IMG/VR virus record: IMGVR_UViG_3300042521_003031
Location: 1 to 29,385 of that record
Length of the DNA stretch: 29,385 nucleotides
Source: a virus
Reading direction: 5' to 3' (one strand)
The notes below the pieces were generated by a model, which saw only the letters and a program-made list of their open reading frames with translations, was not told where the DNA came from and searched no databases. Position numbers and translations under genes: made by a program. The first letter of the stretch is position 1. Each line of letters begins with the position of its first letter. Of this stretch, positions 3,001 to 23,430 are shown in pieces.

Positions 3001-3812
3001 CCAAGAATGTCTCCATTATCTTTAGTCAACTGGCCGTTTTCATCGCGCTCTAATACGAGCACGTTAATAGGCACTACGTCGTAAAGACCAAGGGTATTAT
3101 TACTAGAAGGGGAAAATGCTTGACTATAACCATCGACAATGATGGCTCCGCCTTTGTTTGCTCGATAAGTGTAATCTTGTGAGCCTTGCCCATCCTTGCT
3201 TGGGTCTTGCTCTGCGTTACCAGGCGGAAGCTGAAAGTCACCAAACTTCAGCGGACCGCTGGCATTGTTGCCATAGAGCCAGTATTTTTGAGCAGGAAAA
3301 TCCTCCAATGGGGCCTGGCCAAATGCAGTAAAACCATATTCATAAGCTTCAATATCTCCAGCTCCGACAACGCCAAGCATTTGAATGAATTGTTTGTTGC
3401 CAAAGCTTTGTACAGCCGACCAGACCAAGGATGTATTAACTCTTAGTCCTCCAGCGCTTCTGTTGTCGTCTTCTTTATTGGTATAAACCAAATTCACGGG
3501 ATCGCCATAGCGTGCCACTTCCTGAAAAGAATTGAAGCCATAACGCGGGCCAAAGATGGCATTGCGACTTTGTTTTCCTACCTTCTGCTGCTGTTCTGGT
3601 CGCGCTGTAAGGGCACCAACCACCTGAAAAATAGTGCCAACAACAGTTAGAACAGTTGCAATGATAGATAACGGCTCGTTTCTTATGTCAAAAACAGTCC
3701 CTATTTTTTCGTCTCTGTAATTCAATTGGGCAAGATAAAACTGCCAGTATTCTTCTTCTGTAATGCCAAGTGCTTCAATTAATTGATGCTCGTAGGGCAG
3801 TAATTTACGCAT
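84..3812 (-). CDS. Tail tip / host-specificity protein, lambda J-like
   Basis: Large 1242-residue protein at the end of the M-L-K-J-like series, in the position of the lambda central fibre protein J, which forms the tail tip and contacts the host receptor. A hydrophobic segment at about residues 47-71 (IIATVLTVVGTIFQVVGAL) resembles the N-terminal region of many J/I-type proteins. A long charged, heptad-like region at about residues 385-580 predicts extended coiled coil. The remainder is rich in beta-prone and aromatic sequence, as expected for hub and fibronectin-like domains. It overlaps the upstream NlpC-like gene by 8 bases, so translation is probably coupled. The family call rests on size, order and general composition; no receptor-binding domain could be recognised. 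Confidence 0.75.
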   Translation of the reverse strand: MRKLLPYEHQLIEALGITEEEYWQFYLAQLNYRDEKIGTVFDIRNEPLSIIATVLTVVGTIFQVVGALTARPEQQQKVGKQSRNAIFGPRYGFNSFQEVARYGDPVNLVYTNKEDDNRSAGGLRVNTSLVWSAVQSFGNKQFIQMLGVVGAGDIEAYEYGFTAFGQAPLEDFPAQKYWLYGNNASGPLKFGDFQLPPGNAEQDPSKDGQGSQDYTYRANKGGAIIVDGYSQAFSPSSNNTLGLYDVVPINVLVLERDENGQLTKDNGDILGRSKDDLGTRISSEDRGIYWPQSWQGSDNRPRFPEGASFTLRFVETDDRIDDEVERAAQDYRIALISTMTASSVYKLGAAKFKLINAIEKKQGREGEFTFQCIETGILCEEDYGTTSYLENEVETEELLQQKREELQALDDERKGYGNIYIGEGADVFLALQAEFDQVEDEIETLTSIIKGTIDDDSLYDAAKNSGQFNDLIKQIDGIEDTIKAKRDLIEEKNDEIADLLDDKPQGYKGQISGKKQRKRVLQNEVRNAKNALKDLYAKLSRRATLRGLYDGNPRSDAADERKRLKRRKNRLKTRLGELASTLILDTGAMAARDAAWQARYDEVQEVINECQFILRDPERFNDYFNVKCLAKIDELTYTTVTKCDIVDFALKARVYKRISGRQSKYGDNKEQKHRDADNGLRIRTAMFWLLYKKESDDIYQRVPTVFAIRRGVEVDNFVSMRFVSNEERTKWSFKMEPIIDLSAEIRTYFGEREVDVAYLDTRAYKNSEKNKNIPIGNGRAGYVAIHGRVLKTERLLPPLNNNPGFVDEWDVFSMRSDTQIAFSFDGGPEIALAAVTEQQIETFPPALYQGLSLIGFNAYSGKGIQDLRTLSAYVTKGKKVRRFAPNQDGDYVVDVNSVPVSSTSYAPEIFLDSVLDKENGIGAYADINGIDLESLGKAVKFCRANGYFMDGVIADPQSWREFWTTVAPFSLLEFTKIGGKESLAPAVPYDENGLVDSRIDISALFNQGNILEGSYKEEFIDYGDNTEDLLATIVYRDSTDGDPFPGNTSFTIRLANADEASCIRQTFDLSAYVSSRNQAINYGMLLCSQRRWSKRAVEFKTFPTESPVAPGSYIYVQTDQNQWDNLTAGKIGAGGSLDIPLTEGIVNATYDALLYKGGQGVIKKPGITIVNNTAPELAAFEGWLVVFGNQITNKRVFRVTEITMEEEGEVTIRAIEHPCDESSGTTYSRIVQFDTTLYQIDD

Positions 3813-4191
3813 CGGCCTTTGGCTTGAACCAGTTGAATTCTCTTATCGTCTTTGACGATAAAGCAATGCTAACACTACGTCCTCTTGGAGCAATGCAAAT
3901 AATGCTTTTGTTTGCTATTGTCCCCAATGCGCTGCGCTGTCCAAGCATTGCCACACAACCAGACGATGGACTAAGTGTTCTGTCGGCATTTTGCAAAAGC
4001 CAACGAGCCATTCTCAATGGAGGAAGAGCATTTTCTTGATAGTTCTCATAGGCCCAAGCAAAATCAGCAGCATAATCATAAAGACCAAGCCTTCGTCTGA
4101 TTGCACAAAACAATTGGAAACAGTCTGTAAAACCGAAGCCATCGTCGGGAGAGGCCCCCCATTTATATTGCAAGCCAATGAGATCATTCAT
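3805..4191 (-). CDS. NlpC/P60-like tail assembly protein (lambda K-like)
   Basis: A 128-residue protein with an N-terminal YKWGASPDDGF stretch followed by TDCFQL, matching the region around the catalytic cysteine (Cys24) of NlpC/P60 cysteine peptidases. In lambda the K protein carries such a domain behind a JAMM domain; here only the NlpC-like half is present. The later segment GCVAMLGQRSALGTI aligns by eye with the family's catalytic-histidine strand, but I see no histidine there, so peptidase activity is doubtful. The gene lies between the L-like and J-like genes, which supports a role in tail-tip assembly or local peptidoglycan opening at infection. Confidence 0.7.
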   Translation of the reverse strand: MNDLIGLQYKWGASPDDGFGFTDCFQLFCAIRRRLGLYDYAADFAWAYENYQENALPPLRMARWLLQNADRTLSPSSGCVAMLGQRSALGTIANKSIICIAPRGRSVSIALSSKTIREFNWFKPKADA

Positions 4192-4193
4192 AA

Positions 4194-4733
4194 CTAGCGG
4201 AAGCTCACTTCTGCTGTCACTGGCAAAATGCCTACATTTGTAGTGTTAAACGTACGTCGCGGGAAATTTGCTCCAACGCTATCCATAGCGCTTCTAAAAC
4301 GCAGCTCAACGGTGGTATCATCAAACGATGCGCCCACGCCAATGTAGTATTCGTCGTACGATGCAACTGTGGAGTAGTTTTCATAGCTTGAAAGACTTCC
4401 CGTGTTGCCTAGCCATGCAGTTTTAAAAGATAATCGACTAAGCCTATTGCCATCGCCTTCTTCAACTAATGCCACGCTAAATTCACTGTGCGGGAATAGC
4501 ACACGCAGCAAGGCATTTTCTCCGTTCAATGAAGCAAGAGAGCCTTCTGCTCTGAATGGCGCAAATTCATACAACGGCACGCTTGTACCAGGCACTGCCA
4601 CTTGAGAATCATTTGTGCCATAGAAAAAATTTTGATAACGATGAGTGGTGCCGCTAATCGGAGTGCCACTGGCTGTGATGCCACTAGCCGTGGTAAGTTC
4701 TAAAAAATTGGCAACAATAATCTTCTCGCTCAT
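4194..4733 (-). CDS. Minor tail protein (lambda L-like position)
   Basis: A 179-residue, mostly beta-prone protein without cysteine pairs. Its start overlaps the stop of the M-like gene in an ATGA arrangement, and two bases separate its stop from the NlpC-like gene. Position between M-like and K-like genes suggests a tail-tip component equivalent to lambda L. Lambda L binds an iron-sulphur cluster through cysteines; this protein has none, so equivalence is positional only. Related proteins in phages are often labelled DUF1833 or minor tail protein, but I cannot confirm membership from sequence inspection. Confidence 0.6.
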   Translation of the reverse strand: MSEKIIVANFLELTTASGITASGTPISGTTHRYQNFFYGTNDSQVAVPGTSVPLYEFAPFRAEGSLASLNGENALLRVLFPHSEFSVALVEEGDGNRLSRLSFKTAWLGNTGSLSSYENYSTVASYDEYYIGVGASFDDTTVELRFRSAMDSVGANFPRRTFNTTNVGILPVTAEVSFR

Positions 4734-5113
4734 GACAACTCACCAATCAATCGCACTGTAACATTGCTCACCCCATTGAATACCGCCTCAATTGCAGGAG
4801 GCTCTGCATACTCCCAAGAAATACTGTCTGGTGCTCTTAGCTCATTACCAAACGCGCTGTTCATTCCAGAAAACATTTCAGAAGGAAGAGCAAATCTATC
4901 TATGCTGCCATTCTGTCCATAGTAGTGATCAATGATTTGCTTTGCCAATGCATCAGTGATGTTTGTAAATTGAAGCTCAATGGAATGACCATAAGATTTG
5001 TTACCAAATACGCGCTTAACCGTAGCGCCTGATAAAGCCCGATAAGTTTTAAGAGGGAATTGCCCCGCTGAGTAGGTTCTCGATGCAGGGCGAATAGAAG
5101 GAAAATCAGCCAT
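4730..5113 (-). CDS. Minor tail protein (lambda M-like)
   Basis: A 127-residue protein opening with FPSIRPASRTYSAGQFP and containing a central QFTNITDALAKQI stretch and a late WEYAEPP motif. This pattern is typical of the small minor tail proteins encoded just after the tape measure in lambda-like and cyanophage tails. The ATG overlaps the last base of the tape measure stop codon (TAATG), and its own stop overlaps the start of the next gene, so the three are translated as a coupled series. It is expected to sit at the distal end of the tail where the initiator complex forms. Function is inferred from family pattern and position. Confidence 0.65.
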   Translation of the reverse strand: MADFPSIRPASRTYSAGQFPLKTYRALSGATVKRVFGNKSYGHSIELQFTNITDALAKQIIDHYYGQNGSIDRFALPSEMFSGMNSAFGNELRAPDSISWEYAEPPAIEAVFNGVSNVTVRLIGELS

Positions 5114-8100
5114 TAACGGATGCCAATGCGAGAGCGAGTGGATGGGCTTTGTTGTATCTTATCAAGGGCCATATTCATTCCCCTGGTAGCACCGCCCGCA
5201 ATTGAAGCACGGCGTGTTTCAGCCATTGCAACCTCTAATTGCTCACGGCTTACATACTCTACGCCATTAATCTTTGTGCTTTCAAACTTAAGCGTAAGCG
5301 GAGCTGCTTGTGCCATGCCTGGTGCATTGCGCCCCATTAAGTCACGAGCAGAACGTTCGCCGTTAATTTGCACTGGAATGGCTCGGCCATTTGGAAGGGG
5401 AACAACAGCTTCGTTGTAGCGCCCTTCACCTACAAGGCCAAGAGTCGGGCCGGACACCATGCCGCCGTCAGCAAAGGCACGGAAACCACCAGGGGCAATG
5501 CCGCCGTTGGCAAATGCCATGCCAGGAGGCAATGCAGAGGCTGGAATGTCTACGCCTTGAACAATAGAGGAAGACGAACTGCCTCCTCCTTTGAACATGC
5601 CACCAATACTGCTAATACCACCGAGCAAGCCGCCAACACTAAGAAGAATGCTGCCGATTCCTCCAAGCGTATTGGAAGTGCCACCTTCTTTGATTTGGTT
5701 AATACCAGCGGCAATGCCCATGATGGAGCCAGCAGCGATGCCGATGCCTTGAACTGTTGCGCCCAATGCTTTTTGCCAATTGATATTGGCCTCTGCAGTT
5801 TTTTCTGCTGTTTGATTCACCGTCTCCGCGACGCCTTGTGTGGCAGTGTTTAAATTCTCCGTAGCGGCGCCGATGGATTCCTCAAATTGCATTCCTGCGG
5901 GCATCTGGTCAATTGGCACGTCAATACCTTGAACAATGGCGGAAGCACCTGGCAATGCATTGGCGGCGGATTGGGCTGCACCTCCTGGGCCACCAGCCGC
6001 GCTTCTTATTGCAGCCGCGTGACCTTCAATTTTCTGTTGTGTTTCACGCGCTGTTTTTAATTCCTGAAGCTGTTTTTCCGTGGCGGAAAGTTGCTCTTTG
6101 CGTTTCGCTTCTTCACTGGGCAGGCCAAATATTGCACCAAGTTGATCCTTGAAGAATTTTTCAACTGGCTGCATTGCAAAGTCAAAGAACATGGTCAAGG
6201 CTTGATCAGCCAAGGCTTCCTGGGCCTTTTTGAGTGCTTCCACCGAATCGCCGCCTTTGGCGATTTCTTTAAACATATCACTGTATGCGCCCGTGACGCC
6301 TTCCACCGCCTGATTAATACGCGTAGAAGTTTCTTCTAGAGCTTTCAGCGCGTCAGCATTTTTCATTGTTGCAATAGCGCTTTCGAGAGCAGCAATTTGA
6401 TAAGCTTTTTGTGCTTCAGTTAAGTCTTGCAACTCTTGCTTATTCTGCGCAATAGCCTCTGCATTACCTTTTAAGGCGGCGGTTTCATTTGGAGTTAAAG
6501 CGATGCCATCCTTTTGTTTCTTTTGCAGGGCCGCAAGAGCCTTTTCATAGTCTTCGGTTTGTTTTTTGTTCCTTTCAATTCGCTCTTGCATTTCATAATT
6601 AGCCTTCGCAAGATCTTCTTGGTATTTAATGTATTCTTGCGGCATTCCTTGTAGCTGTAGATCATTTCTAATCTTCATTAAATCATTTTCAAGCCTTTGT
6701 TCTGCGACCGGGAAAATAGTATCAATATTTGCCTTGATCAAAGCGCTGCGTTTTTTTAGGGCTTCATTTGTGGCCATAATTGCAGTGCGTGCAGCCATCT
6801 CTTGCTGCGTGGCCATCTGTGTTTGTTCTACTTGCAGTTTGCCTACAGCCTTGTCCGCACGACGCTCTCTCGCGCCTGTTCCTCCTCCAATGCCAAGGAT
6901 TGATTGAACTTTGGCTGTAAGCTGCTTCTCCTGTCCAACTGGCACTTGGGCACCAGGCACGTCAAATGCAAGGCCAGCATAATGAGCGGATCCAGGGGTG
7001 TGGCGACCAACGGGGCTTCGTCCCTTGAATTCTGTTACCTGCACACCAGCCTTGGTAAGCTGCTGATATGCAGCCTCTGCCAATGCGCGAGAAGCAAATG
7101 CAAGATGCTCGTGATAATTGCCGCCACCATGGTCGGCCTGGTAATAAGGGCTAGAAGGATCTCCCGTGATATATTGAGTCATGCCACTTGGCAGGCCTTT
7201 TCCGCCGCCTCCACCTCCGGCAGCAGCAGCAGTATTTTCCGCCGCCCTGTAGTCCGCCACGGCTTTAGCAGCATCTTGCTCTGCCTTACGGATGATGCTG
7301 ATGCGGTCAAGCTCTAGTTTCTGTAAATCTTGTTGGAATTTTTCTTGACGAGCTTGGATTGAATTAAGCCCTGCAAGCTCGTAGGAATTGCGAGCATCAA
7401 TCAATGCGAGTTGATGCTGGAAGGCTTGGTCGTCAAGAGACATGCGACCTTCCGTGATTGCTTTGTTAAGTGCATTCTGAGAATTGGCGGCATCAATGGC
7501 GGCTTGCTGCTGCTGATTTGCAAGCTTTTCTGCTCCAGACTGCCCTTTGCCATCTGCAGCACCGGGTGGAATGTCTTTCAATTGTTGCCTACTAGCATCA
7601 ATTTGACGCTGCCTATTTACAGCCACTCGGGATGCCTCTGCAGCCGCCTCATCCGCCTGGCCAGCCTCATTGAGTGCTTTAATTCTTCCTTGTTGCGCAG
7701 CTTTTAAATTTGCATTAATTTGCATTTGGCCACCAGATGCAACGCCGCCCATGTAATTAATGCCAGATGCCAATCCGGTCCTTTGTAATGTCGCATATTC
7801 TTCCTGGGTAATTTTTTGCGCTCCACCTTTCAAGCGATTAAGAATGGCTGTGGCTTTTTCAATGGATTGCAACTGAGTTTCAATTTCTTGCTGTTTAGTC
7901 TGAGCGGCGGCAATATCACCAGCTTCTGCAGCCCTATTTAGTTCATCTGTCAGGCCAGCAGCCTTTCTTCGTGCATCATCTGCAGCGCTGCCAATATTTA
8001 AAAGTCGTTGAGCAACAAAATCAAGCCCAAGCAAAACTGCGCCTACGCCAAAAGAAATCAAAGTAACCTTCAATGCCATTGCCGCGATTCTTGCGGCATT

Positions 8101-11004
8101 GAAAGCGGCGGCCATCGCGTATATCCTTGCAATCGCGGCGCTAATGCTGGCAATCCATCCTTGAATTTGCGCAATGCTTAATGTACTCATGAAACGAATT
8201 ATTGCGGCAGTTGCTTGCACAATGCCAGTGCTGACTAGTAATTGAAACGCACCAGTCAAAGTACCAACAATCGTTGCATAAAGAGCCACTCGTGCTACAA
8301 AAGGAATAGAGATGAAATCAAGAACAAGCTTTGCCACTGTAGTCAGTGGCTGTACCAGCACGCTAAGAGAAGAAATAAAGCCTCCAATATTTTGAGCAGC
8401 GGAAACGATAGATGGGATAATATTTTTTAGTGTTGCGTAAAAATCTTGAGCCCTGGGAGTAAGCAGATTAAAGCCTTCCCCACCAATAACCAAATTATCG
8501 GTGAAAGCCTTGATGACATCTGTTGCATCTTTGATCATGCTTTGCACAGCGGGTCCGACGACTGCCGCAAAAGCATTCACCATTGGCTGCAAAGATTCAT
8601 ACATCGTCTGCAAAGAATTTTGCATGGCGTTCATTTGCCCTTGCAATGTTTTGGATGCTTTTGACGCAGCATCGCTAAACTTAGTATTCATCAATATTGC
8701 TACATTCTCAAGGAGCACTTTCATCGCGTCGCCCTTGAACATTCCATCTTCTAGAGCCTTGGTAAACTCTGTCATGCTCATTTTTGCTGCTTCGGCAAAA
8801 AGTGCAACACTGCCAGGTAAAACGTCGCCCAACTGACCCTTGAGTTCCTCCGACATGACCTGGCCTTTGCTGGCCATTTGCCCAAACGCATAAAATACGC
8901 GATCCACTTGATCAGCGCTCAGCCCAAAAGTCGCAGCGGCTTTAGTAATGCCACCGAAAAGATTTTGAATACTGCCCGGATCGAAACCAGCAGGCTGCAA
9001 TGATGCAAATAATCTCGTGAAGCCTTCCCTTGCACTGTCAATGGGGATATTTAATTCTTTGATTGAGTTTTCAATAAACTTTAACGATGGGCCAAATTGC
9101 CCTGTTGATTGAGTGACGGCATCTAGTTGATTGCGAAACACTTCAAGATTTTTGGCTGCCTCAAAAGCCTGTCCTGGTAAAGACGTGAAAAACGCTAATG
9201 CTTTATACGCCGTGCCATAAAGCAGCACTTGTTGAGCGGCGTGTCCAAATTCGGCTCCTAAGTCTTTAATCGCAGAAGTTAAAGGAAGAGTTCTTTGATT
9301 TAAAAATTCACTGGCGCGTTCCAATTGGGTGGGAAGCGTGCCGAGCATGTGGTAACCCGGAGGAAGTTGCGACGACCGCCCCATCCCTCCACCAGGGAAT
9401 GCAAGGGCGCCTCCTCTTCCACCATCGCCCCCTCCACCAGTTCCGCTAACTCCACCGTAACCAAAGAAGCCGCCACCTCCATAATTCGTAGTAGTACCAG
9501 CAGGTGGTAACGCCGCCTGGATTGGCGCCCCTGGAAGCTGAGGCCCTTGGCCAAATTGAAAGAAGGATCGAGGCGGCGTGGTTGCCATGCCCGCGAAGGG
9601 GTTGGGAGCGTAAGGAGACACTGGCCCGATGGAAAGCTCCAGTGCGCGACGAGCTTTATTGATTAAGTATTCGGCAGCCCTGCTTAATGGTGCCTGTTCC
9701 ATTCCAATCTGCGGAGATTGAATCGCAGGCAAACCCTCAAACATTTGTCTTGTCATGCGAGAAGCACTTGTTTGCCCTGCCGCAGGAAGAAGGAGTTGAC
9801 CAGCTTGCTGCGGATCACGCACTCGCTCATAAAGCTCACGCGCAGACGCGCTCATGATCCCTTTACTTAAAAAATCAGCTAAAACAGTTCCAGTCTTTCC
9901 GATCCATGGATTTGTTGTTCCTACGCTTTTCGTATACTCCGTAAAATCCTTGGCAATGGCCTTTAGCAATGGATCAAAAGCTTTTCCCTTGAGGTCTAAA
10001 AATTTCAGTCCCTCTTGCTTAAACTCCGCTTGTTTATTGGCAGCACCAATTAGATCAGTGGTAATTCTCCGTTCGGGCATCATGCGCAACATTCGTTGAG
10101 CAGCGCGAGGATTTTCTGTAAGATTTGCTATGCGGTCCAGCATCTCATTGAGATTGGGCATAGAACGCGCAGCGCTTGTTTGCCTTTGTCCCCTGAGAGG
10201 CTGCAAACTTGCTTCAAAGCCAAGTCCTTGCTGGTATCTTCCACGAGCAATCAACTCCCTAATTGCACCTAGAGCGGCAGAGCGATTGGCTCCTTGTGGA
10301 TTTTGAGATTGAAATGCTTGTAGAAGTCGCTCAACTTCCTGTCTATTTCTTCCCGATGGCAAGCTAGCGGCAGCTTTTGCTAACGCCTGGGCATTTGCTT
10401 TCGCAATTTTAGTGAGTTCTGCTTGATACGCAGGGGAATCTAAAAATGAGGGACGCTTTGCTCGGCCAGCTTCGCCTCCACTAACTCCAGCGGCGCCAGC
10501 GGGCGCTATTCCCCCCTTGAGTTTTGTCTCAACTTCAATGACAATGCCAGAAAGACTATCCTTAATGCTCTTCCTGATAGCATTGATATTTTTGACGAGA
10601 GGAGGCTTGACTTCAATTGGCACAAAGATTGCGCCTTTTGGTCCCGTGATTTTTGAAATAATATCGCGCCTTGCCTCAGCAGCCTTGGCCCCGGAAATGC
10701 TGGATTCAACTTTTACATCAAGAGAAATATCTTCTTTCTTAAGCGCAGCAAGAGTTTGCTTGAAAGCATTCACTTGCTTTAGCAGTGCCTCAAGACTCGT
10801 GCTCTTTACTTCTACATCATATTTTTTCCTGCTAAGTGAATTGCTAAGCAAACGCAATTCATTGCTAATTTTGTCTCTCTTAAAGCGAATATTAATATCA
10901 ATCGGCTGTCCAGCAAGAGCGGACGATGCCTTCTGCAATTCCTGTCTGAAGAAATTAAGGTCAAGACCCACCTTAAGGGTCATATCAGCATTTTGACCTG
11001 CCAT
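5113..11004 (-). CDS. Tape measure protein with embedded M15-like motif
   Basis: A 1963-residue tape measure protein, which sets tail length and is threaded through the tail tube. I start it at the ATG at 11004; a TTG two codons upstream also fits the frame. The N-terminal half is alpha-helical and Ala/Gln rich, with the usual tape-measure core near residues 600-800. Hydrophobic segments cluster near residues 900-1000, and Gly-rich ones near 1740-1800. Near residues 1291-1350 there is HGGGNYHEHLAF and then GSAHYAGLAFD, which fits the S-x-H-x-x-G-x-A-x-D zinc motif of M15 peptidases, so it may open peptidoglycan. The C-terminus has the common phage sequence GPTLGLVGEGRYNEAVVPLP. It follows the G/GT chaperone pair, as expected. 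By the usual 1.5 angstroms per residue, the tail could approach 290 nm. Confidence 0.93.
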   Translation of the reverse strand: MAGQNADMTLKVGLDLNFFRQELQKASSALAGQPIDINIRFKRDKISNELRLLSNSLSRKKYDVEVKSTSLEALLKQVNAFKQTLAALKKEDISLDVKVESSISGAKAAEARRDIISKITGPKGAIFVPIEVKPPLVKNINAIRKSIKDSLSGIVIEVETKLKGGIAPAGAAGVSGGEAGRAKRPSFLDSPAYQAELTKIAKANAQALAKAAASLPSGRNRQEVERLLQAFQSQNPQGANRSAALGAIRELIARGRYQQGLGFEASLQPLRGQRQTSAARSMPNLNEMLDRIANLTENPRAAQRMLRMMPERRITTDLIGAANKQAEFKQEGLKFLDLKGKAFDPLLKAIAKDFTEYTKSVGTTNPWIGKTGTVLADFLSKGIMSASARELYERVRDPQQAGQLLLPAAGQTSASRMTRQMFEGLPAIQSPQIGMEQAPLSRAAEYLINKARRALELSIGPVSPYAPNPFAGMATTPPRSFFQFGQGPQLPGAPIQAALPPAGTTTNYGGGGFFGYGGVSGTGGGGDGGRGGALAFPGGGMGRSSQLPPGYHMLGTLPTQLERASEFLNQRTLPLTSAIKDLGAEFGHAAQQVLLYGTAYKALAFFTSLPGQAFEAAKNLEVFRNQLDAVTQSTGQFGPSLKFIENSIKELNIPIDSAREGFTRLFASLQPAGFDPGSIQNLFGGITKAAATFGLSADQVDRVFYAFGQMASKGQVMSEELKGQLGDVLPGSVALFAEAAKMSMTEFTKALEDGMFKGDAMKVLLENVAILMNTKFSDAASKASKTLQGQMNAMQNSLQTMYESLQPMVNAFAAVVGPAVQSMIKDATDVIKAFTDNLVIGGEGFNLLTPRAQDFYATLKNIIPSIVSAAQNIGGFISSLSVLVQPLTTVAKLVLDFISIPFVARVALYATIVGTLTGAFQLLVSTGIVQATAAIIRFMSTLSIAQIQGWIASISAAIARIYAMAAAFNAARIAAMALKVTLISFGVGAVLLGLDFVAQRLLNIGSAADDARRKAAGLTDELNRAAEAGDIAAAQTKQQEIETQLQSIEKATAILNRLKGGAQKITQEEYATLQRTGLASGINYMGGVASGGQMQINANLKAAQQGRIKALNEAGQADEAAAEASRVAVNRQRQIDASRQQLKDIPPGAADGKGQSGAEKLANQQQQAAIDAANSQNALNKAITEGRMSLDDQAFQHQLALIDARNSYELAGLNSIQARQEKFQQDLQKLELDRISIIRKAEQDAAKAVADYRAAENTAAAAGGGGGGKGLPSGMTQYITGDPSSPYYQADHGGGNYHEHLAFASRALAEAAYQQLTKAGVQVTEFKGRSPVGRHTPGSAHYAGLAFDVPGAQVPVGQEKQLTAKVQSILGIGGGTGARERRADKAVGKLQVEQTQMATQQEMAARTAIMATNEALKKRSALIKANIDTIFPVAEQRLENDLMKIRNDLQLQGMPQEYIKYQEDLAKANYEMQERIERNKKQTEDYEKALAALQKKQKDGIALTPNETAALKGNAEAIAQNKQELQDLTEAQKAYQIAALESAIATMKNADALKALEETSTRINQAVEGVTGAYSDMFKEIAKGGDSVEALKKAQEALADQALTMFFDFAMQPVEKFFKDQLGAIFGLPSEEAKRKEQLSATEKQLQELKTARETQQKIEGHAAAIRSAAGGPGGAAQSAANALPGASAIVQGIDVPIDQMPAGMQFEESIGAATENLNTATQGVAETVNQTAEKTAEANINWQKALGATVQGIGIAAGSIMGIAAGINQIKEGGTSNTLGGIGSILLSVGGLLGGISSIGGMFKGGGSSSSSIVQGVDIPASALPPGMAFANGGIAPGGFRAFADGGMVSGPTLGLVGEGRYNEAVVPLPNGRAIPVQINGERSARDLMGRNAPGMAQAAPLTLKFESTKINGVEYVSREQLEVAMAETRRASIAGGATRGMNMALDKIQQSPSTRSRIGIR

Positions 11005-15862: not shown

Positions 15863-16420
15863 TCAATCGCCAGTGAGGGTAAACGAGGGGCCATTCAGCT
15901 CCAGAATCGCAACGCCATCACCAGTGGTGGTGGTCAGATAGCGAGCATTGGACAGAACGGCAGTCTTGCCAGAAATGACGGCATTATTGAAACGACCGGC
16001 ATACTTCACGCCAGTAGCAGTGTGAATCACGCGCACAGCAGTGGAAGGGTTGACAGCGCCATGCACGTACACGGCAACTGCACCTTCGCTGGCCACGTTC
16101 ATCACTTGATCCACTTTCACACCAGGACGGCTGTTGGCATCCAAGGCGGTTTCGTCCACATAAGTGAGGACGTTAATGCCCAGGAATGTATCGCCAGATG
16201 CGGAAATGGTTTTAGCGCCAGTACCACCAGTGCCAGTGCTGTCATACACAACGCCATTACCAAAAGGAATGACGACGGCAGTTTCGTTGACGCGGGTGAT
16301 AATGGTGTTATCACGAATGTCGGACAGTTGACCTTCCAGCAGTGCGTCGTGCTCCAGAGCATAAGTCTGTTGCACGCCACCAGCGGAAGGAGAGCCCGAG
16401 GCAGAGAAAGTTACGGCCAT
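15863..16420 (-). CDS. Head decoration / structural cement protein
   Basis: A 185-residue, beta-rich, Gly/Thr/Val-rich protein beginning MAVTFSASGSPSAGGV. Size, composition and position between the protease/scaffold gene and the major capsid gene match phage cement proteins (DUF2190 or Gp24-like), which bind the expanded shell and stabilise it. A strong AAGGAGG (16431-16437) lies ten bases before the ATG, comparable to the capsid gene, which fits a near-stoichiometric product. Fifteen bases separate it from the capsid gene. The precise family is not certain. Confidence 0.65.
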   Translation of the reverse strand: MAVTFSASGSPSAGGVQQTYALEHDALLEGQLSDIRDNTIITRVNETAVVIPFGNGVVYDSTGTGGTGAKTISASGDTFLGINVLTYVDETALDANSRPGVKVDQVMNVASEGAVAVYVHGAVNPSTAVRVIHTATGVKYAGRFNNAVISGKTAVLSNARYLTTTTGDGVAILELNGPSFTLTGD

Positions 16421-17622: not shown

Positions 17623-17684
17623 ACTTTATCAAGAAGCAAATGTTATACTTTATAGGCTTATGCAAAACGGAATAAATCATCGTG
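17623..17684. promoter_or_regulatory. Divergent control region between protease/scaffold and XRE genes
   Basis: A short AT-rich stretch from which the late head genes (-) and the XRE regulator (+) diverge. Promoter-like -10 elements are present on both strands: TATACT at 17644-17649 (+) and TATAAA at 17649-17654 (-). No convincing -35 boxes are seen. A 9-bp direct repeat ATACTTTAT occurs at 17621-17629 and 17645-17653 and could be an operator for the regulator. Promoter activity is inferred. Confidence 0.4.
17625..17636 (+). repeat. 12-bp direct repeat flanking the XRE gene, copy 1
   Basis: TTTATCAAGAAG, identical to 17978-17989. It lies just before the protease/scaffold start, on the upstream side of the XRE gene. 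It could be an operator half-site or a trace of insertion of the regulator. Confidence 0.6.
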
Positions 17685-17960
17685 ATGTTTTTGGCGCGTA
17701 GCACGACGGATGCTCTTAAACTTCCCCACCAAGAGGCTCGCATTCTCATTGCGAGTCGCATTAAAGAAGCCCGGCTTAATGCCGGGCTCACGCAACACGA
17801 CGTGGCAAAAGAACTCCACATTAGTCAAAGCTCTTATTGCCGCATTGAAAAAGGCACTGCTCCGCCAGACTGCGTGCAGATTCGCACGCTCAGCGGCCTC
17901 TACGGAATTAGCGTGCTATGGCTGATGGGCTACCCATCTTTCATTGCAAAAATTAATTGA
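17685..17960 (+). CDS. XRE/Cro-CI-type helix-turn-helix regulator
   Basis: A 91-residue DNA-binding protein. The segment IASRIKEARLNAGLTQHDVA through ISQSSYCRIEKG is a classic XRE helix-turn-helix (about residues 23-55), followed by the usual LSGLYGISVLWLMG helix and a very short tail, so no large effector domain is present. A GTG directly precedes the chosen ATG. It is the only + strand gene inside the - strand virion operon, pointing away from the protease/scaffold gene, and so probably has its own promoter. It could repress itself and the late genes across the shared control region, or be an acquired gene. The ribosome binding site is weak. Confidence 0.85.
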   Translation: MFLARSTTDALKLPHQEARILIASRIKEARLNAGLTQHDVAKELHISQSSYCRIEKGTAPPDCVQIRTLSGLYGISVLWLMGYPSFIAKIN

Positions 17961-17997: not shown

Positions 17998-18309
17998 TCA
18001 ATCCCCATCATCGTCTTCGCCACGAATGCTGGCAAGTTGATGTTCAATGTCTTCCATAATGTAAGACTTCGCCATCGCCTCAATTTCAAACGTTAGGAAC
18101 TTTGTCGGCTCAAAATGCTCATCAGGCTTTTCGTAAACACTCATCACATAGATGTGCGTTTCGTCCAGCCGTCCATTCTTAAAACATTGCTTCTCTACCA
18201 GCTCCCACCTAGAAGTGTTGCGATGCTCATTGGCGGAAAGAATAGAGAGAGCCTTTAAAAGACCAATGCCTTCGTCTTCTTCTTCGATAACGCGTACGTA
18301 TTCGCTCAT
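17998..18309 (-). CDS. Unknown acidic protein, last gene before the XRE insertion
   Basis: A 103-residue protein that I do not recognise, with acidic ends (VIEEEDEGIG near the start, RGEDDDGD at the end) and a beta-prone middle (THIYVMSVYEKP). Its ATG overlaps the stop of the upstream frameshifted gene (ATGA), so it is translationally coupled and likely real. No membrane segment is seen. It lies between the frameshift pair and the protease/scaffold gene, so a head-related accessory role is possible but not shown. Confidence 0.6.
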   Translation of the reverse strand: MSEYVRVIEEEDEGIGLLKALSILSANEHRNTSRWELVEKQCFKNGRLDETHIYVMSVYEKPDEHFEPTKFLTFEIEAMAKSYIMEDIEHQLASIRGEDDDGD

Positions 18310-18659
18310 TGGTCTTTTTGACGACTCTCTACCATCTTAATGATGCGATTTGCCCACGCCCTGCCAGCATCGCCGCCCCATAAAAGCCATGCGATATAAC
18401 CAGCATCATCTTCCCCGCCACTTTTATTCTTTTCATGGCGAGAGAAAAATGCCGACATGCGCTTGATGGTGGCAAAGCTAATCTTGCTTCCGCCCGCTAA
18501 ATCACCAGCACGAGCAACGCCGCTTCCAATGCCTTGCTTGCCTGCTTCCTGCGTTGTCAAGCCGCCCTTGCCGTGCTTCTTGCGCAGCTCTAGTCCGCGA
18601 CGAGCAGCAGCCCTTACAACCGCAGGAGGGGCAAAGCTTTCAGCATCGCCCCTCAGCGC
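18306..18659 (-). CDS. Conserved phage domain reached by -1 frameshift
   Basis: A 117-codon open stretch carrying a domain I have seen attached to or near phage portal and head genes. Its features are ARRGLELRKKHGKGG, then a GVARAGDLAGG segment, KISFATIKRMSAFFSRHEKN, and a terminal GYIAWLLWGGDAGRAWAN. The function of this domain is unknown. Its conserved N-terminal part lies upstream of the only usable start in frame (a TTG at 18560), and there is no ATG or GTG between the preceding in-frame stop (18675-18677) and that TTG. The frame is -1 relative to the upstream gene and joins it at a slippery heptamer, giving a 201-residue fusion. Starting at TTG would cut the domain; an indel that split one gene is the other explanation. 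Confidence 0.7.
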   Translation of the reverse strand, partial: ALRGDAESFAPPAVVRAAARRGLELRKKHGKGGLTTQEAGKQGIGSGVARAGDLAGGSKISFATIKRMSAFFSRHEKNKSGGEDDAGYIAWLLWGGDAGRAWANRIIKMVESRQKDQ

Positions 18660-18665
18660 TTTTTT
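18626..18665 (-). promoter_or_regulatory. Probable programmed -1 frameshift signal (A-AAA-AAG plus hairpin)
   Basis: In the frame of the upstream gene the codons read GGA AAA AAG CGC TGA. The heptamer A-AAA-AAG (18659-18665) is the dnaX-type slippery sequence in correct register. Four bases later a perfect 7-bp stem GAGGGGC/GCCCCTC (18648-18654 with 18626-18632, 15-base loop) begins within the stop codon. Thirteen bases upstream of the heptamer is GGAGG, resembling the stimulatory internal Shine-Dalgarno in dnaX. Confidence 0.7.
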
Positions 18666-18910
18666 CCGCAGGAGCTATCCTCCATTTCTTCTTCCTCTTC
18701 TTCCTCCCCAATCAGCTCCTTAAAGAAGCCCATATAGTATTCATCGCTCATATCTTTCTTAGGCTTGCGCGTCATGCCAGCTTCGGACAATGCAATAGCA
18801 AGAGCTTGCTGAGAGCTTTTTACAGGCTCCCCGCTGCTGCTTTTGAGCTTGCCACTCTTGAATTCGCGCATCACTTTTGCGATTTTCTTTTGCTTTTCTT
18901 TCTTGGTCAT
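18653..18910 (-). CDS. DUF6496-like small protein, unshifted product
   Basis: An 85-residue protein beginning MTKKEKQKKIAKVMREFKSG, followed by SSQQALAIALSEAGMTRK. This pattern (IAKVM-EFK-G then KQAIAIALSEAG) is the small basic domain labelled DUF6496 in many phage and bacterial proteins; its function is unknown. The C-terminus is a glutamate run and then SSCGKKR, and it ends two codons after a slippery sequence. Most ribosomes would end here and a fraction would continue into the next domain. It lies 20 bases beyond the HAD gene of the glycan cassette. The ribosome binding site is weak. Confidence 0.7.
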   Translation of the reverse strand: MTKKEKQKKIAKVMREFKSGKLKSSSGEPVKSSQQALAIALSEAGMTRKPKKDMSDEYYMGFFKELIGEEEEEEEMEDSSCGKKR

Positions 18911-18929: not shown

Positions 18930-20156
18930 CTAGTTTAGCAGTGTTTCGTGGTCATCAATATGCACGTTTTGCTTGGCCGTAACGGAATGCGGCATTTGAT
19001 CAACAATGCTGGAAAAAATTTCTATATTCGGCTCAAAATTAAAATAAGGGAAATGATGAATGGCGGTACTAACCGCATCTTCTTGACATTGAACGGTGGC
19101 TAGAGGATATTCGCATGGAAGCCGATTCGGCCACTGTGCTAAACTGCCCAAGCCAGAAGAATTGAAACGCTCGATAGCAGAATGGAAGCATCGAGCAAGT
19201 AGTTTCCCTTGATGTAATGTTCCAGTAAGGTAAAGTAAGTCTGGATCCTGATTAAATGTCTTCCTCCAGTAATTAATCAAGCTCTTGCCAGTGCCTTGTA
19301 AATCGACAATGATTTTCCCAACCGCAACGTCTCTTACATACTGCTCCCATTCTTCGCCAACTTGCTTCAGCGCGATCCTGGAACAATGAAAAGTATTGTT
19401 TGTTGTGCCATGCAACGCTTCGTGAATGCGCTGCAAATGCAAGCAATCTCGATAAACAAAAGCTACATTTTCTGAGGGGATTTCCAATGCTGCTAAAATT
19501 AGCGCTGGAATATTTAAAACAGCTTGCTCAATCCACATAGCTTTTAATAAATCGCCATCTTCATATGGAGCCGCAAGGCGCACCACTCGCATGAGCATTG
19601 CCAGGTCTCCACCAACGCTTTCTTCCCACGACGAGAAATGCACGCGCGTGTAATGCTTTGCTTCAATGCCAGCTCTGTTCGCACTTGCTACGTCGGAGTG
19701 ATAATTATCCCCAATGTGTAAATCAATCTTGGGAAGACTTGCCCAAATACTTCCTGAGCTTTTTCCTCCGGTAGAAACAAAAATTTGGACATCCTTTGTT
19801 AAGCCGTTCTTTCGCAGAATTGCATCAATTGCCTCTTTGGGCAGATACATATCGCTAACAATTAGATCTCCATTTTCCACCTTATTAATATTTTCAACAA
19901 TGGGACAGCAATGCTCTAACTCTGCATTGATCTCTGCTTGCATATAATACTGCTTCTCATTTTCATTCCATCCATAATCCTTTGAAAGCTCATCGTAAAT
20001 AGTTTGCAATGTCCAAGGACATCTGCTTTCAGCCGCTTTACGTCTATGCGTAAAACCTTGCAAACCAAGCCCTTCCCCCATTGCATCAAACACCGACAGT
20101 GGGTTAAACTTTCGCCTCGTAACAAGGGTGTCAAAACAGTCCCAACTAGTAGTCAT
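18930..20156 (-). CDS. HAD-superfamily protein of glycan biosynthesis (COG5610-like)
   Basis: A 408-residue protein. The N-terminal third is a HAD domain: SWDCFDTLVTR (nucleophile Asp6), LIVSDMYLP (motif II, Ser101), Lys near residue 132, and HIGDNYHSD (motif IV, Asp150/Asp155). The usual second Asp of motif I is Phe8, as in the COG5610 group. The C-terminal two thirds contain VYRDCLHLQRIH and HCSRIALKQ, matching the SRD...SR blocks of that group, and then VDLQGTGKSL. COG5610 proteins occur in surface-polysaccharide gene clusters, often fused with glycosyltransferases; their substrate is not established. The start overlaps the FkbM stop (ATGA), so it is the last gene of the glycan cassette. 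Confidence 0.75.
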   Translation of the reverse strand: MTTSWDCFDTLVTRRKFNPLSVFDAMGEGLGLQGFTHRRKAAESRCPWTLQTIYDELSKDYGWNENEKQYYMQAEINAELEHCCPIVENINKVENGDLIVSDMYLPKEAIDAILRKNGLTKDVQIFVSTGGKSSGSIWASLPKIDLHIGDNYHSDVASANRAGIEAKHYTRVHFSSWEESVGGDLAMLMRVVRLAAPYEDGDLLKAMWIEQAVLNIPALILAALEIPSENVAFVYRDCLHLQRIHEALHGTTNNTFHCSRIALKQVGEEWEQYVRDVAVGKIIVDLQGTGKSLINYWRKTFNQDPDLLYLTGTLHQGKLLARCFHSAIERFNSSGLGSLAQWPNRLPCEYPLATVQCQEDAVSTAIHHFPYFNFEPNIEIFSSIVDQMPHSVTAKQNVHIDDHETLLN

Positions 20157-20773
20157 TGCTTTTCCGGAATAAAGTCGGCATCAAAATCATTAATGCGTAA
20201 GAGTGTATATTTTTTAGATGCAAGATACTCAGTAATTTCCTTCAAAAAATCGTTCCTGTGACCAAATTCAAGGGCGATATAGTCAAAGCTAGTCCTTTCC
20301 CACGCGATACCTTTTAAAGCCTCAAGCTCTGCGCCCTCTACATCCAAACTGAAATAATTAAAATGCAAATTTTCGCCTCCTAGCAACTTGCTTAATGGTT
20401 GAGCGGTCATTGAAACAACTTCTACCTTGCTGAAATCAAAAGCGAAGTAATTTTGATTATGAGAAATGCCTCCAATGCGAGAAAGGAAATCATTGCCAGA
20501 ATGTGGCAATTCAAAATCCACTTGTTTTTCTTCGCTCCACACGGCTGCTTTAATCACACAAGACTTGGGCCTATTGAGTTCGCATTGTTTCGCAAGAATT
20601 GGATTGGCTTCAATGCAAACACCGCCCCAGTCAAGCTGACTTTCCAGTGCGTAGGTATTAGATGTAGCGATGCCATCATGAGCCCCTACATCCAAAAATT
20701 GGCCATTCTTTGCTCCCTTAATAATGTTTTCAATAAAGAAACGATCTTGTCCAATTTGACTGTAGTATTTCAT
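20153..20773 (-). CDS. FkbM-family methyltransferase
   Basis: A 206-residue SAM-dependent methyltransferase. It opens with YYSQIGQDRFF, typical of the family, followed by the SAM-binding motif FLDVGAHDG (residues 26-34), an acidic strand end CIEANP (about 53-58) and the FkbM signature SLDVEGAELEALKG (142-155). FkbM enzymes O-methylate sugars and other small groups, often on polysaccharides. Overlaps of four bases on both sides with the GT32-like and HAD genes indicate translational coupling. It probably methylates the sugar added by the neighbouring transferases. The substrate is inference. Confidence 0.85.
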   Translation of the reverse strand: MKYYSQIGQDRFFIENIIKGAKNGQFLDVGAHDGIATSNTYALESQLDWGGVCIEANPILAKQCELNRPKSCVIKAAVWSEEKQVDFELPHSGNDFLSRIGGISHNQNYFAFDFSKVEVVSMTAQPLSKLLGGENLHFNYFSLDVEGAELEALKGIAWERTSFDYIALEFGHRNDFLKEITEYLASKKYTLLRINDFDADFIPEKQ

Positions 20774-21483
20774 AGTGCATACACCTCACGTGCTTGCCAT
20801 AGTTCGTTGTAATTATTCACGCCCTTAGCGCCAAGTCCAGTTAAATCCCCGCCGCCCGCAGGCTTACTCCATGCCATGATGGTGCCGTCTGGAAGGACAA
20901 ATGCCCTGTTCTTTTGACCATGCGTAGGCGTTAGCTCAAGATAATCTCCATAAACGAAATCTTCTTGACTGCCATTAACAGCCAATGCTTTCCCAAGTAA
21001 TGTTGGACCAGTGGGGCACAATGGAGTGATGCCATAATACTTTTCGATGCAATTAGCAACAATCATTTCAATCGCAGTTTGCAGCGCGGGATTATCTGGC
21101 TGAGAATAAAGCACAGTCGTGGCGCACGCCCAGCTCGTAAAACTAAAGCGTTGAATATCGCGAAAAGCCAAGAATTTCACGCGGTCGCCCAGTTCCACTG
21201 CATTGAAAGCTCTCACGCCGATATCAAAATACCAGCCGCCAAGCTTGTTCAACAAGCAGAATCGACCAAGATCTGCCTTATAAGAAAATGGCTTCAAAGT
21301 ATCATAGGCCCACAGCACATGCTCTTCATAGTTGTCAGCGATGAAAGCGCGAAGCGAATCTGCGTTGTAAATAACATGCTTTGCTTCAGGAAAACATGCG
21401 TCAATAGTGCCAGTGGCGTGCTTTAGGAAGGGGCTTAGTTCTTCTGATGGATTGGTGGAGAGAAAGATTTGTGAAATTTGCAT
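20770..21483 (-). CDS. Glycosyltransferase, GT32-like, atypical DXD
   Basis: A 237-residue protein. I start at the ATG at 21483; a TTG at 21492 would overlap the preceding stop. The segment YKADLGRFCLLNKLGGWYFDIGV (residues about 68-90) is the donor-binding block of GT32-like (Gly_transf_sug) enzymes, normally ending in DXD. Here it reads Asp87-Ile-Gly89, so the second metal-binding aspartate is missing. A later FTSWACATTVLYSQP region and CPTGPTLLGKAL match the family's middle and C-terminal parts (PxTGP...L). The missing aspartate may alter metal use or donor. Its stop overlaps the FkbM start. It likely adds a sugar in a short glycan. Confidence 0.75.
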   Translation of the reverse strand: MQISQIFLSTNPSEELSPFLKHATGTIDACFPEAKHVIYNADSLRAFIADNYEEHVLWAYDTLKPFSYKADLGRFCLLNKLGGWYFDIGVRAFNAVELGDRVKFLAFRDIQRFSFTSWACATTVLYSQPDNPALQTAIEMIVANCIEKYYGITPLCPTGPTLLGKALAVNGSQEDFVYGDYLELTPTHGQKNRAFVLPDGTIMAWSKPAGGGDLTGLGAKGVNNYNELWQAREVYAL

Positions 21484-21488
21484 GATGA

Positions 21489-22712
21489 TCAACCAATCTT
21501 TACTGGAGTGCCAAAGCCCTTAAATTCAGGCTCAGGAGCTTTTGTATTGAGAGTGCGCTCAACTGCATCGAGAAGCTGCTGTTGAATATAGGGCCAAGTG
21601 AAAGGCTCCTCCCGCAAACGCCTTGCGCACCATTGCCCATCTTTCCTCAGCGCATCACGATTTTCGTAATAATACGTAAGAATTTCAGCGGCACTGTCGG
21701 GATCGGGAAGGAAGCGCTCAAGGCCATAGTTCCTGTCGGTTTCCGAGGCGTTGCATTCAATACGCGGCACTTCATCAAAGATTTCTTTCAGGCTTGTATG
21801 GTCTGGCACCACTTGCGCCACGCCAACAGAGCCGTGCTCGCTATTAACAAGGCCCCAGCCCTCACCAATGCAAGTGTTAATGCCAATGTCTGCAGCGTTA
21901 TAAACCTTGTTTAGTTGCTCAATGGGAAGGCAATTGTCAGTGGAAAAATGCGGACTAGTAAGGATTAGCTTGCCAGTAGGATCAAAGCCTTCGTCACGTG
22001 CAATTCGCTTAAACAAGGGAATGATCTCCCACCCCAAATCTTTGCTGCCCATGTTGAGCCAGAGACGAGCGTCGTCTTTGTCTTTGGCAAATTTGATAAA
22101 GGCTTTAAGCGTCAAATCAATACGCTTACGCGGCTGGTTCCTGTTGCCATTGAAAACAATGAATGCATCTTCGGGAACGCCAAGCTCTTTTCGGCACGCC
22201 TGTTTATCAAGCGGGAAGAATTTTTCAAAGTCTGTACCATGACCAATAATATCAATGGGCTTGGTGTAGCCCATTAGTTGCAGCTCCTTTTCCGCGAATT
22301 GCGTGTAAGTGGCTAAGCCGTCCCATTCCATCATTGGAGCGGTCAGCTCGGGGAAAAGGCCGTAAGAATCAATGGGAGTGTAAACAAACCATTTAAATCC
22401 AACTTGTTCCCTGAAGCTTTTCGCTTGATTCCACAGATTTAGCGCAATCCAGATATCGTTGGTCACCCACACCAAATCAGGCTTAATGCGATTGATGAGA
22501 TCGGCAATACGATGAGAACCAAACGGATCAGAACCATGGACCATGGCGGGATACATTTGGCAATGCCCCTGCATTTCATTGGGATCTCCATGCCAATTTA
22601 CCGCCAAAGCATGCACTTCATGCTCTTTTGCCAATGCAGGGATGAGATATTCGGCTACGCGTCCAAATCCCGTTTGCACGCCAACGTCGCCACAATAAAG
22701 AATTTTTGCCAT
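21489..22712 (-). CDS. Glycosyltransferase family 4 (GT-B fold)
   Basis: A 407-residue retaining transferase. The N-terminal domain has a glycine-rich opening (ILYCGDVGVQTGFGRVAEYL, acceptor side) and the C-terminal domain carries FNGNRNQPRKRIDLTLKAF (about 187-205, donor phosphate grip) and the E-x7-E motif EGWGLVNSE (Glu284 and Glu292). The order and spacing are those of GT4 enzymes, which use NDP-sugars or related donors. It begins the four-gene glycan cassette 37 bases after the minor head gene. The Shine-Dalgarno sequence is weak. The acceptor, whether virion protein or host surface glycan, is not known. Confidence 0.88.
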   Translation of the reverse strand: MAKILYCGDVGVQTGFGRVAEYLIPALAKEHEVHALAVNWHGDPNEMQGHCQMYPAMVHGSDPFGSHRIADLINRIKPDLVWVTNDIWIALNLWNQAKSFREQVGFKWFVYTPIDSYGLFPELTAPMMEWDGLATYTQFAEKELQLMGYTKPIDIIGHGTDFEKFFPLDKQACRKELGVPEDAFIVFNGNRNQPRKRIDLTLKAFIKFAKDKDDARLWLNMGSKDLGWEIIPLFKRIARDEGFDPTGKLILTSPHFSTDNCLPIEQLNKVYNAADIGINTCIGEGWGLVNSEHGSVGVAQVVPDHTSLKEIFDEVPRIECNASETDRNYGLERFLPDPDSAAEILTYYYENRDALRKDGQWCARRLREEPFTWPYIQQQLLDAVERTLNTKAPEPEFKGFGTPVKIG

Positions 22713-22749: not shown

Positions 22750-23430
22750 TTACACTTGCACACTTGGCGCTTGTTGGCGGAAATATTTGACGCTACATCG
22801 ACAATTAGCCCTACATGCACAACGCTGCCCAGGAAGCGGCACGCTGCCAATGGGAACCATGCCGCGAGCAGCATAGTCGAGGCAATCTTGACAGTGTTTC
22901 GCTTGTGAATCAAGGATGCGTCGCATCAAGGAATAGCCTTGTTTTTCTTGACGAATACTGGCGCCTTCCCAAAAACTACCTCGCACGCTCTGAGCATACA
23001 GCCCGATGCGAGCAAGAGCCATGGCACTAGAAACGCGGCCATCCAAAAGATCACGAGCAAAGCTCTGTAAGAAAGCATATTCCACACGGAGACGCTGCCC
23101 GATGCGCCCCCAGTCAGCAGCCCCCATCGTTTCGCGTCCGCCATTGCCAATGATCGCCGCCTGTAAGTGAACAAGTTTAAGAGCCTCTCTTACGCTTCCT
23201 TGCCATTGATCCAACGTAATATCACCAGCGCTAAGCATACGTGTAAAACGCCGTAGCTCAGCGCCAAGCTTATTAATTCGACCATCCACCAATGCTTCCA
23301 CTGCGCGAGCGCTGAGAAAACGTCCGTTAGCGCCGCGATACCTGCCACTGATAGGGTCGTAGCGCCAGGATGATTCATCAAAGCGAACAATGGCTTCAGA
23401 GAATTGGGAGAGATCATTGAGGCTGGACAT
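22750..23430 (-). CDS. Minor head protein (SPP1 gp7 / Mu gpF-like)
   Basis: A 226-residue protein with a helical middle (about 100-165: DWGRIGQRLRVEYAFLQSFA, then ARIGLYAQSVRGSFWEG) typical of phage head morphogenesis proteins. The C-terminus has six cysteines, Cys180-x2-Cys183 and Cys204, 206, 210, 212, in the pattern HCQDC...GQRCACRANCRC that could bind zinc. Its ATG lies inside the end of the portal gene (17-base overlap), with GGAGG six bases upstream. Minor head proteins of this type bind the portal and enter the procapsid. Placement after the portal is standard. Confidence 0.8.
   Translation of the reverse strand: MSSLNDLSQFSEAIVRFDESSWRYDPISGRYRGANGRFLSARAVEALVDGRINKLGAELRRFTRMLSAGDITLDQWQGSVREALKLVHLQAAIIGNGGRETMGAADWGRIGQRLRVEYAFLQSFARDLLDGRVSSAMALARIGLYAQSVRGSFWEGASIRQEKQGYSLMRRILDSQAKHCQDCLDYAARGMVPIGSVPLPGQRCACRANCRCSVKYFRQQAPSVQV

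Follow-up and report, generated by a model that had tools for sequence, protein, structure and literature searches.

Swappable glycan-modification genes in the head operon of S-CBS4-like phages suggest a capsid shell with interchangeable sugars

Seroconverting phages are known to remodel the surface polysaccharides of their hosts. The gtr (seroconversion) cassettes carried by temperate phages change glycans type-specifically, and phage-encoded glycan pathways close to virion genes are already known as well. In mycobacteriophages, experiments have shown glycans on capsid and tail tube, and the decoration of these capsid or tail proteins is proposed to be the work of phage-encoded glycosyltransferases (Freeman et al., 2023, cited in PMC12619734). 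Here we analyze a four-gene glycan-modification cassette within IMG/VR virus record IMGVR_UViG_3300042521_003031, a stretch of DNA of 29,385 bases that we refer to as the window and that derives from a virus whose host group is photosynthetic bacteria. The head-and-tail operon containing the cassette is encoded on the minus strand while TerL is encoded on the plus strand. The two cases share phage-encoded glycosyltransferases, but the mycobacteriophage glycans were shown on virions whereas those of the window clade are predicted from genes, and the clade carries a conserved, swappable slot of several enzymes that includes methyl and ribofuranose chemistry. The features that set this locus apart are the clade-wide exchange at the slot and a predicted ribofuranosyltransferase.

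The nearest isolated relative is Synechococcus phage S-CBS4, whose portal is 64% identical and whose GT4-type glycosyltransferase (GT) is 59.5% identical over 99% of the sequence. The S-CBS4 genes gp014-gp016 (a GT, a 'galactosyl transferase' and a methyltransferase) occupy the same slot between the head gene and the DUF6496/protease block but differ in that the second is of GT2 type, the third is a Methyltransf_23 enzyme and neither an FkbM nor a ribofuranosyltransferase-like gene is present. In the S-CBS4-like clade each phage carries its own version of the cassette in this slot of the head operon, which suggests a shell coated with interchangeable sugars. For the window, we favor on balance a reading in which the four genes form a soluble, switchable pathway for a short, methylated, ribofuranose-containing glycan whose acceptor is most likely a virion protein, the shell of the capsid being the best candidate. 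A preliminary description of this DNA had listed GT4, GT32-like, FkbM methyltransferase and HAD/COG5610-like genes, in this order, as a pathway for glycan modification within the head operon. Gene families and position support this, all four genes being minus-strand and flanked by the head gene and the DUF6496/frameshift pair:

22750..23430, minus strand: conserved head gene, upstream boundary of the slot (phrog_24776, E 9e-82)
21489..22712, minus strand: GT4-type (GT-B) glycosyltransferase, the constant slot gene (phrog_2170, Pfam Glycos_transf_1)
20770..21492, minus strand: GT32-like (GT-A) glycosyltransferase with DXD altered to DI[GA] (Pfam Gly_transf_sug)
20153..20773, minus strand: FkbM-family S-adenosylmethionine (SAM) methyltransferase (Methyltransf_21, TIGR01444)
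18930..20156, minus strand: HAD phosphatase plus glycan phosphoribosyltransferase (gPRT), a predicted bifunctional ribofuranosyltransferase dependent on phosphoribosyl pyrophosphate (PRPP) (Bcs3 profile and fold match)
18653..18910, minus strand: DUF6496 gene, downstream boundary of the slot and first half of a -1 frameshift pair (Pfam PF20106, E 1.9e-8)
15863..16420, minus strand: capsid cement protein of the E217 gp24/Pam3 gp6 family, candidate glycan acceptor (PF22758, E 1.5e-19; cement protein 8hdt_G, E 0.0037)

The slot is filled in every complete relative and always contains a GT4 gene. Sampling of relatives via GT4, the head gene (window and S-CBS4 versions), FkbM and HAD-type proteins, and the cement protein yielded 131 distinct loci that contain the head gene, and the slot is complete in 85 of them. 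Slot proteins were clustered using a stricter overlap rule to exclude spurious open reading frames (ORFs). GT4 is present in 85 of 85 complete slots, including all 58 that were reached through the head gene rather than a GT, and slot length ranges from 1,991 to 6,408 base pairs (bp) with no empty slot among the 85. GT32-like and DUF4422 genes are found in 57 slots each and methyltransferases in 41, while 35 slots contain an upstream module and 4 the HAD-type gene. With HNH endonucleases left out, at least 19 distinct gene sets are observed and, these endonucleases and unannotated ORFs excepted, all of them are devoted to sugar or methyl chemistry. Families include DUF4422, GT2-type enzymes, an RfbH-like dehydrase with an epimerase, a C-methyltransferase, RMNT-type and Methyltransf_23 enzymes and the upstream isomerase/SDR/oxidoreductase module. 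This module is inserted between the head and GT4 genes (examples are L032, L036 and L093; L numbers denote individual loci) and consists of an SDR, a sugar isomerase-like protein and, encoded on the opposite strand, an FAD oxidoreductase plus an unassigned protein. The cassette had initially been described as rare at this location, which is incorrect because GT4 occupies all 85 complete slots and the slot is never empty; a rare insertion is thereby ruled out, and the question raised at the outset, whether the spacing closes without the cassette, is answered by the lack of any closed slot. The uncommon feature is the FkbM and 'HAD' version, which is a minority form of the slot.

Comparison of closely related loci indicates that alleles are swapped at the slot. 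The window and L005 share 97% DNA identity through GT4 and GT32, are then unrelated and return to 96% identity from DUF6496 onward. The junctions are sharp and located at the end of the GT32 gene (8589-8608) and the start of DUF6496 (10466-10679; both in reverse-complement coordinates). Both recur in comparisons with L020, L234 and L054, and the GT32-side junction recurs with L093. The whole block from GT4 to the HAD-type gene is 99-100% identical at the protein level between L003 and the window, with head and portal proteins at 89% and 91%. HNH homing-type endonucleases are found at slot edges in 10 of the 85 complete slots (L014, L015, L085, L308 and others) and are a possible driver of cassette swapping.

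The fourth gene probably encodes a two-domain, PRPP-dependent ribofuranosyltransferase, as judged from profile and structure-model matches to the phosphatase and ribofuranosyltransferase domains of Bcs3, the capsule polymerase of H. influenzae b. The gene has no Pfam match above cutoff and no curated NCBIfam match. A profile of six HAD-type sequences matches Bcs3 in the PDB with an E value of 1.5e-17 and, weakly, the 'ribofuranosyl transferase' 7shg (E 0.012), and an AlphaFold2 (AF2) model with a predicted local distance difference test (pLDDT) score of 76 matches the Bcs3 structures 8a0m/8a0c (E ~1e-12, 545-575 alignment columns, TMq 0.53). In Bcs3, the phosphatase CrpP retains only the first aspartate of HAD motif I while CriT places R679, D680, S707 and R708 around PRPP (PMC10299916). 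Motif I of the HAD-type proteins is an invariant DCFDT in all six sequences, again with only the first aspartate retained, and R236-D237, which represent the (S)RD feature of loop 1, align with R679-D680 of CriT. S259-R260, invariant and located after the next strand, represent the SR feature of loop 2, and D285 of VDLQG, likewise invariant and after the next strand, is a candidate for the acidic loop-3 residue corresponding to E818 of Bcs3. Two-domain enzymes of this kind (PRP plus gPRT) use PRPP as donor for the transfer of ribofuranose-5-phosphate, whose phosphate they subsequently cleave off (PMC11127046). Like CrpP and CriT of Bcs3 and the gPRT and PRP domains represented by 7shg, all of which serve bacterial surface glycans, the window protein combines a HAD phosphatase, with only the first aspartate of motif I, and a PRPP-transferase-like domain in one chain. 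In contrast to Bcs3, it is phage-encoded, located in a head operon and only 408 residues long, it lacks ribitol-phosphate transferase and SH3 domains, and no export genes were seen nearby.

The identity as a generic HAD hydrolase was consequently replaced by that of a HAD-phosphoribosyltransferase after the PDB profile and fold searches. The original HAD/COG5610-like label was too general, and the simple scheme of two sugars added and one methylated is incomplete because the resemblance of this gene to a phosphatase plus phosphoribosyltransferase, i.e. a ribofuranosyltransferase, implies a third sugar-adding step. HAD-type loci number 17 among all viral contigs scanned. In every full viral locus, the gene is found within the head-operon slot directly after a methyltransferase, which is FkbM in some loci and a different, weakly matching type in others. 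Because this order holds in all loci with enough sequence, methylation and ribofuranosylation may be functionally coupled. Two genome-contig scans with the patterns used, which distant relatives could escape, returned no cellular source for the gene, and a small literature search found no description of a phage ribofuranosyltransferase. A distant relative (29-31% identical) is located near methyltransferase-like genes in the unrelated virus Rctr41k (L088:5956-7374), where it is annotated only as a HAD hydrolase. In L307 (274-2277), GT4 shares its reading frame with another putative second transferase (GT25-like by eye) or forms a fusion with it, followed by unchanged FkbM and HAD-type genes; a GT4-GT32 fusion was considered for this locus and rejected, the partner not being GT32.

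The other three cassette proteins can be assigned to families with varying confidence. GT4 matches phrog_2170 (E 1.5e-50) and Pfam Glycos_transf_1 (28.1 bits, cutoff 26.4), and its E-x7-E motif GEGWGLVNSEH is conserved across 98 sequences. Its best solved relative is the chlorovirus glycosyltransferase B736L (3oy2, E 5e-15, residues 9-392), which stems from an unrelated eukaryotic virus and has only this single enzyme in common with the cassette. The GT32-like protein matches Pfam Gly_transf_sug (PF04488) at 26.1 bits (cutoff 23) and is predicted to adopt a GT-A fold, its AF2 model (pLDDT 70) matching the GT-A enzymes YeGT, PaToxG and Och1 with E values of 1e-5 to 6e-4. No intact DXD metal-binding motif is found among the variants listed over 65 sequences, all of which are D-I-[G/A], and we retain the name GT32-like because the motif reads DI[GA] instead of DXD. 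The FkbM protein is a clear family member by sequence, with matches to Methyltransf_21 (PF05050, E 4.4e-17) and to TIGR01444 above the NCBIfam cutoff and with the SAM motif DVGAHDG. Conservation of the cassette genes is far beyond chance, with 85 invariant positions over 65 GT32-like sequences and 180 over 4 HAD-type sequences.

These assignments allow us to propose a pathway whose activities, step order and acceptor we infer from the enzymes encoded. GT4, constant in the clade, would add the first or core sugar, a role suggested by its universality, and the GT32-like GT-A enzyme would attach a second one. FkbM would then O-methylate a sugar, and the HAD-phosphoribosyltransferase would move ribofuranose-5-phosphate from PRPP to the glycan, with the HAD domain removing the phosphate. 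Steps two to four would be exchanged between neighboring phages by recombination at the fixed junctions, creating serotype-like variants. The glycan would be carried by a virion protein, most plausibly one of the capsid shell, namely the cement protein, the major capsid protein or both.

The evidence on the acceptor leans towards the virion. We searched 13 relatives of 66-80 kilobases (kb), with completeness gauged against the 69-kb S-CBS4, for marker families of other pathways. The GtrA flippase (PF04138), as present in seroconversion cassettes, is found in none of the 13, the membrane-embedded transferase itself not having been part of the search, and neither Bac_transf (initiating transferase) nor Acyl_transf_3 (O-acetylase) gave a match. 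The GT4 profile matches one place per genome or none. Few slot proteins exceed a membrane-like hydropathy, and the HAD-type cluster, a marginal case, is the only one whose members generally do. Together with the fixed place of the slot among the late capsid genes, from which it is never lost, and an apparent though not significant co-switching with the cement protein, these results argue against the proposal that the enzymes remodel host surface polysaccharide during infection, for instance to block superinfection or to release progeny. We regard this proposal as unlikely but worth keeping in mind, given that the enzymes are cytoplasmic, like core-lipopolysaccharide transferases, and that RfbH-like, DUF4422 and ribofuranosyltransferase proteins also occur in O-antigen loci. 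There is moreover a precedent in pelagimyophages, whose glycosyltransferases were interpreted as modifiers of host lipopolysaccharide (PMC7029224). Glycosylation of the phage DNA as hypermodification against restriction appears very improbable. DNA-modifying phage glycosyltransferases are known (Pyle et al., 2024, cited in PMC12619734), but a ThyA-type hydroxymethylase (PF00303) is found in none of the 13 relatives, a result that leaves the TET/JBP route untested, S-CBS4 possesses a thymidylate synthase annotated as thy1 and no annotated base-modifying gene, and the genes are located within the head operon. GT genes are carried alongside structural genes in 85 of 85 slots, a feature of virion-glycosylating phage systems, and decoration of the virion as a whole, be it the capsid or another part, is in our estimate moderately probable.

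Within the virion, the cement protein is the most conspicuous candidate acceptor. The window and L093, the relative closest to it in the core, have core proteins that are 99% identical, while cassette and cement protein both differ (cement 69%), and identity drops sharply inside the cement gene. Over 80 loci, labels for the upstream module change 8.6 times on cement trees compared to 13.6 and 14.3 times on length-matched trees of the protease and of o103, and the protease and o103 genes lie between the cement gene and the cassette. Several observations weigh against capsid decoration as formulated here. Nearly as good a fit to the module is seen for the major capsid and head genes (8.2 vs 7.1 label changes, 52 loci). 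The association of cement and cassette in independent pairs is not significant (median p 0.125-0.25 on the protease plus major capsid protein tree, no power on the major capsid protein tree), and there are exceptions, with L017 and L021 lacking the module but encoding module-type cement and L246 showing the reverse. In addition, the GT32-like protein lacks the second aspartate of DXD, the HAD-type model was built on six sequences, a glycan on the virion is a prediction from genes, and cytoplasmic enzymes could also modify the host lipopolysaccharide core or exopolysaccharide. Finally, the slot of many relatives contains two minus-strand (opposite-strand) genes and is therefore not a simple single operon.

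Co-switching of cassette and cement protein is thus suggestive and not significant. The cement protein as a proven partner was rejected and is only a lead because, despite good tree-based counts, the independent-pairs test lacks power and a first count over 47 loci gave no clear difference. Since cement, major capsid and head genes differ little in how well they follow the module, these data do not single out one acceptor, and this also speaks for a glycan on another virion part such as tail tube, fibers or portal, as do the mycobacteriophage glycans on both capsid and tail tube subunits (Freeman et al., 2023, cited in PMC12619734). The slot is however located in the head part of the operon, near the head, protease, cement and major capsid genes, and we consider such an acceptor rather improbable. 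Returning to the capsid, one may tentatively envisage a capsid 'serotype locus' in this tailed-phage clade, in which a constant initiating glycosyltransferase and swappable modules, including the ribofuranosyltransferase, would produce type-specific methylated glycans matched to the cement allele.

The gene arrangement in the window is compatible with cassette expression together with the surrounding head genes. As annotated, neighboring cassette genes share 4 bp at each of the three internal junctions, in agreement with the overlaps first noted, although the GT32-like gene probably starts at the ATG at position 21483 and not at the TTG at 21492, because M4 is invariant in the family, turning the GT4/GT32 overlap into a 5-bp gap. 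The flanking gaps are 37 bp from head gene to GT4 and 19 bp from the HAD-type gene to DUF6496. Terminator-like sites (15) do not exceed those in shuffled sequences (11.2 +/- 4.8), so that the absence of a visible terminator holds, and late expression of the cassette would be expected. Among the 85 relatives with a complete slot, 35 additionally have opposite-strand genes in it. FkbM (39.8%) and the HAD-type gene (43.0%) have the lowest GC content among the genes checked, with portal, head, protease, cement and major capsid genes at 48.6-54.1%, which fits later acquisition. Downstream of the cassette, the slippery site A_AAA_AAG lies in frame at the 3' end of the DUF6496 gene with a strong hairpin behind it (z -2.5), and a -1 shift links its frame (18653-18910, minus) to the next one (18306-18560, minus). 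The heptamer is kept in 71 of 90 distinct DUF6496 sequences, with GGGAAAG instead in 9, making a programmed frameshift likely. An XRE-type helix-turn-helix gene (17682-17960, plus strand) is positioned on the opposite strand within the head operon between o103 and protease, and its position is kept in relatives.

S-CBS4 and its host Synechococcus CB0101 have both been isolated, so the main question can be tested with a single virion preparation. A phage ribofuranosyltransferase, if true, would extend the range of sugar chemistry found in phages. Should the capsid be the acceptor, a widespread group of cyanophages would switch its shell glycans much like bacteria switch O-antigens, and selection acting outside the host, by grazers, other phages or sorption to particles, would come into question.

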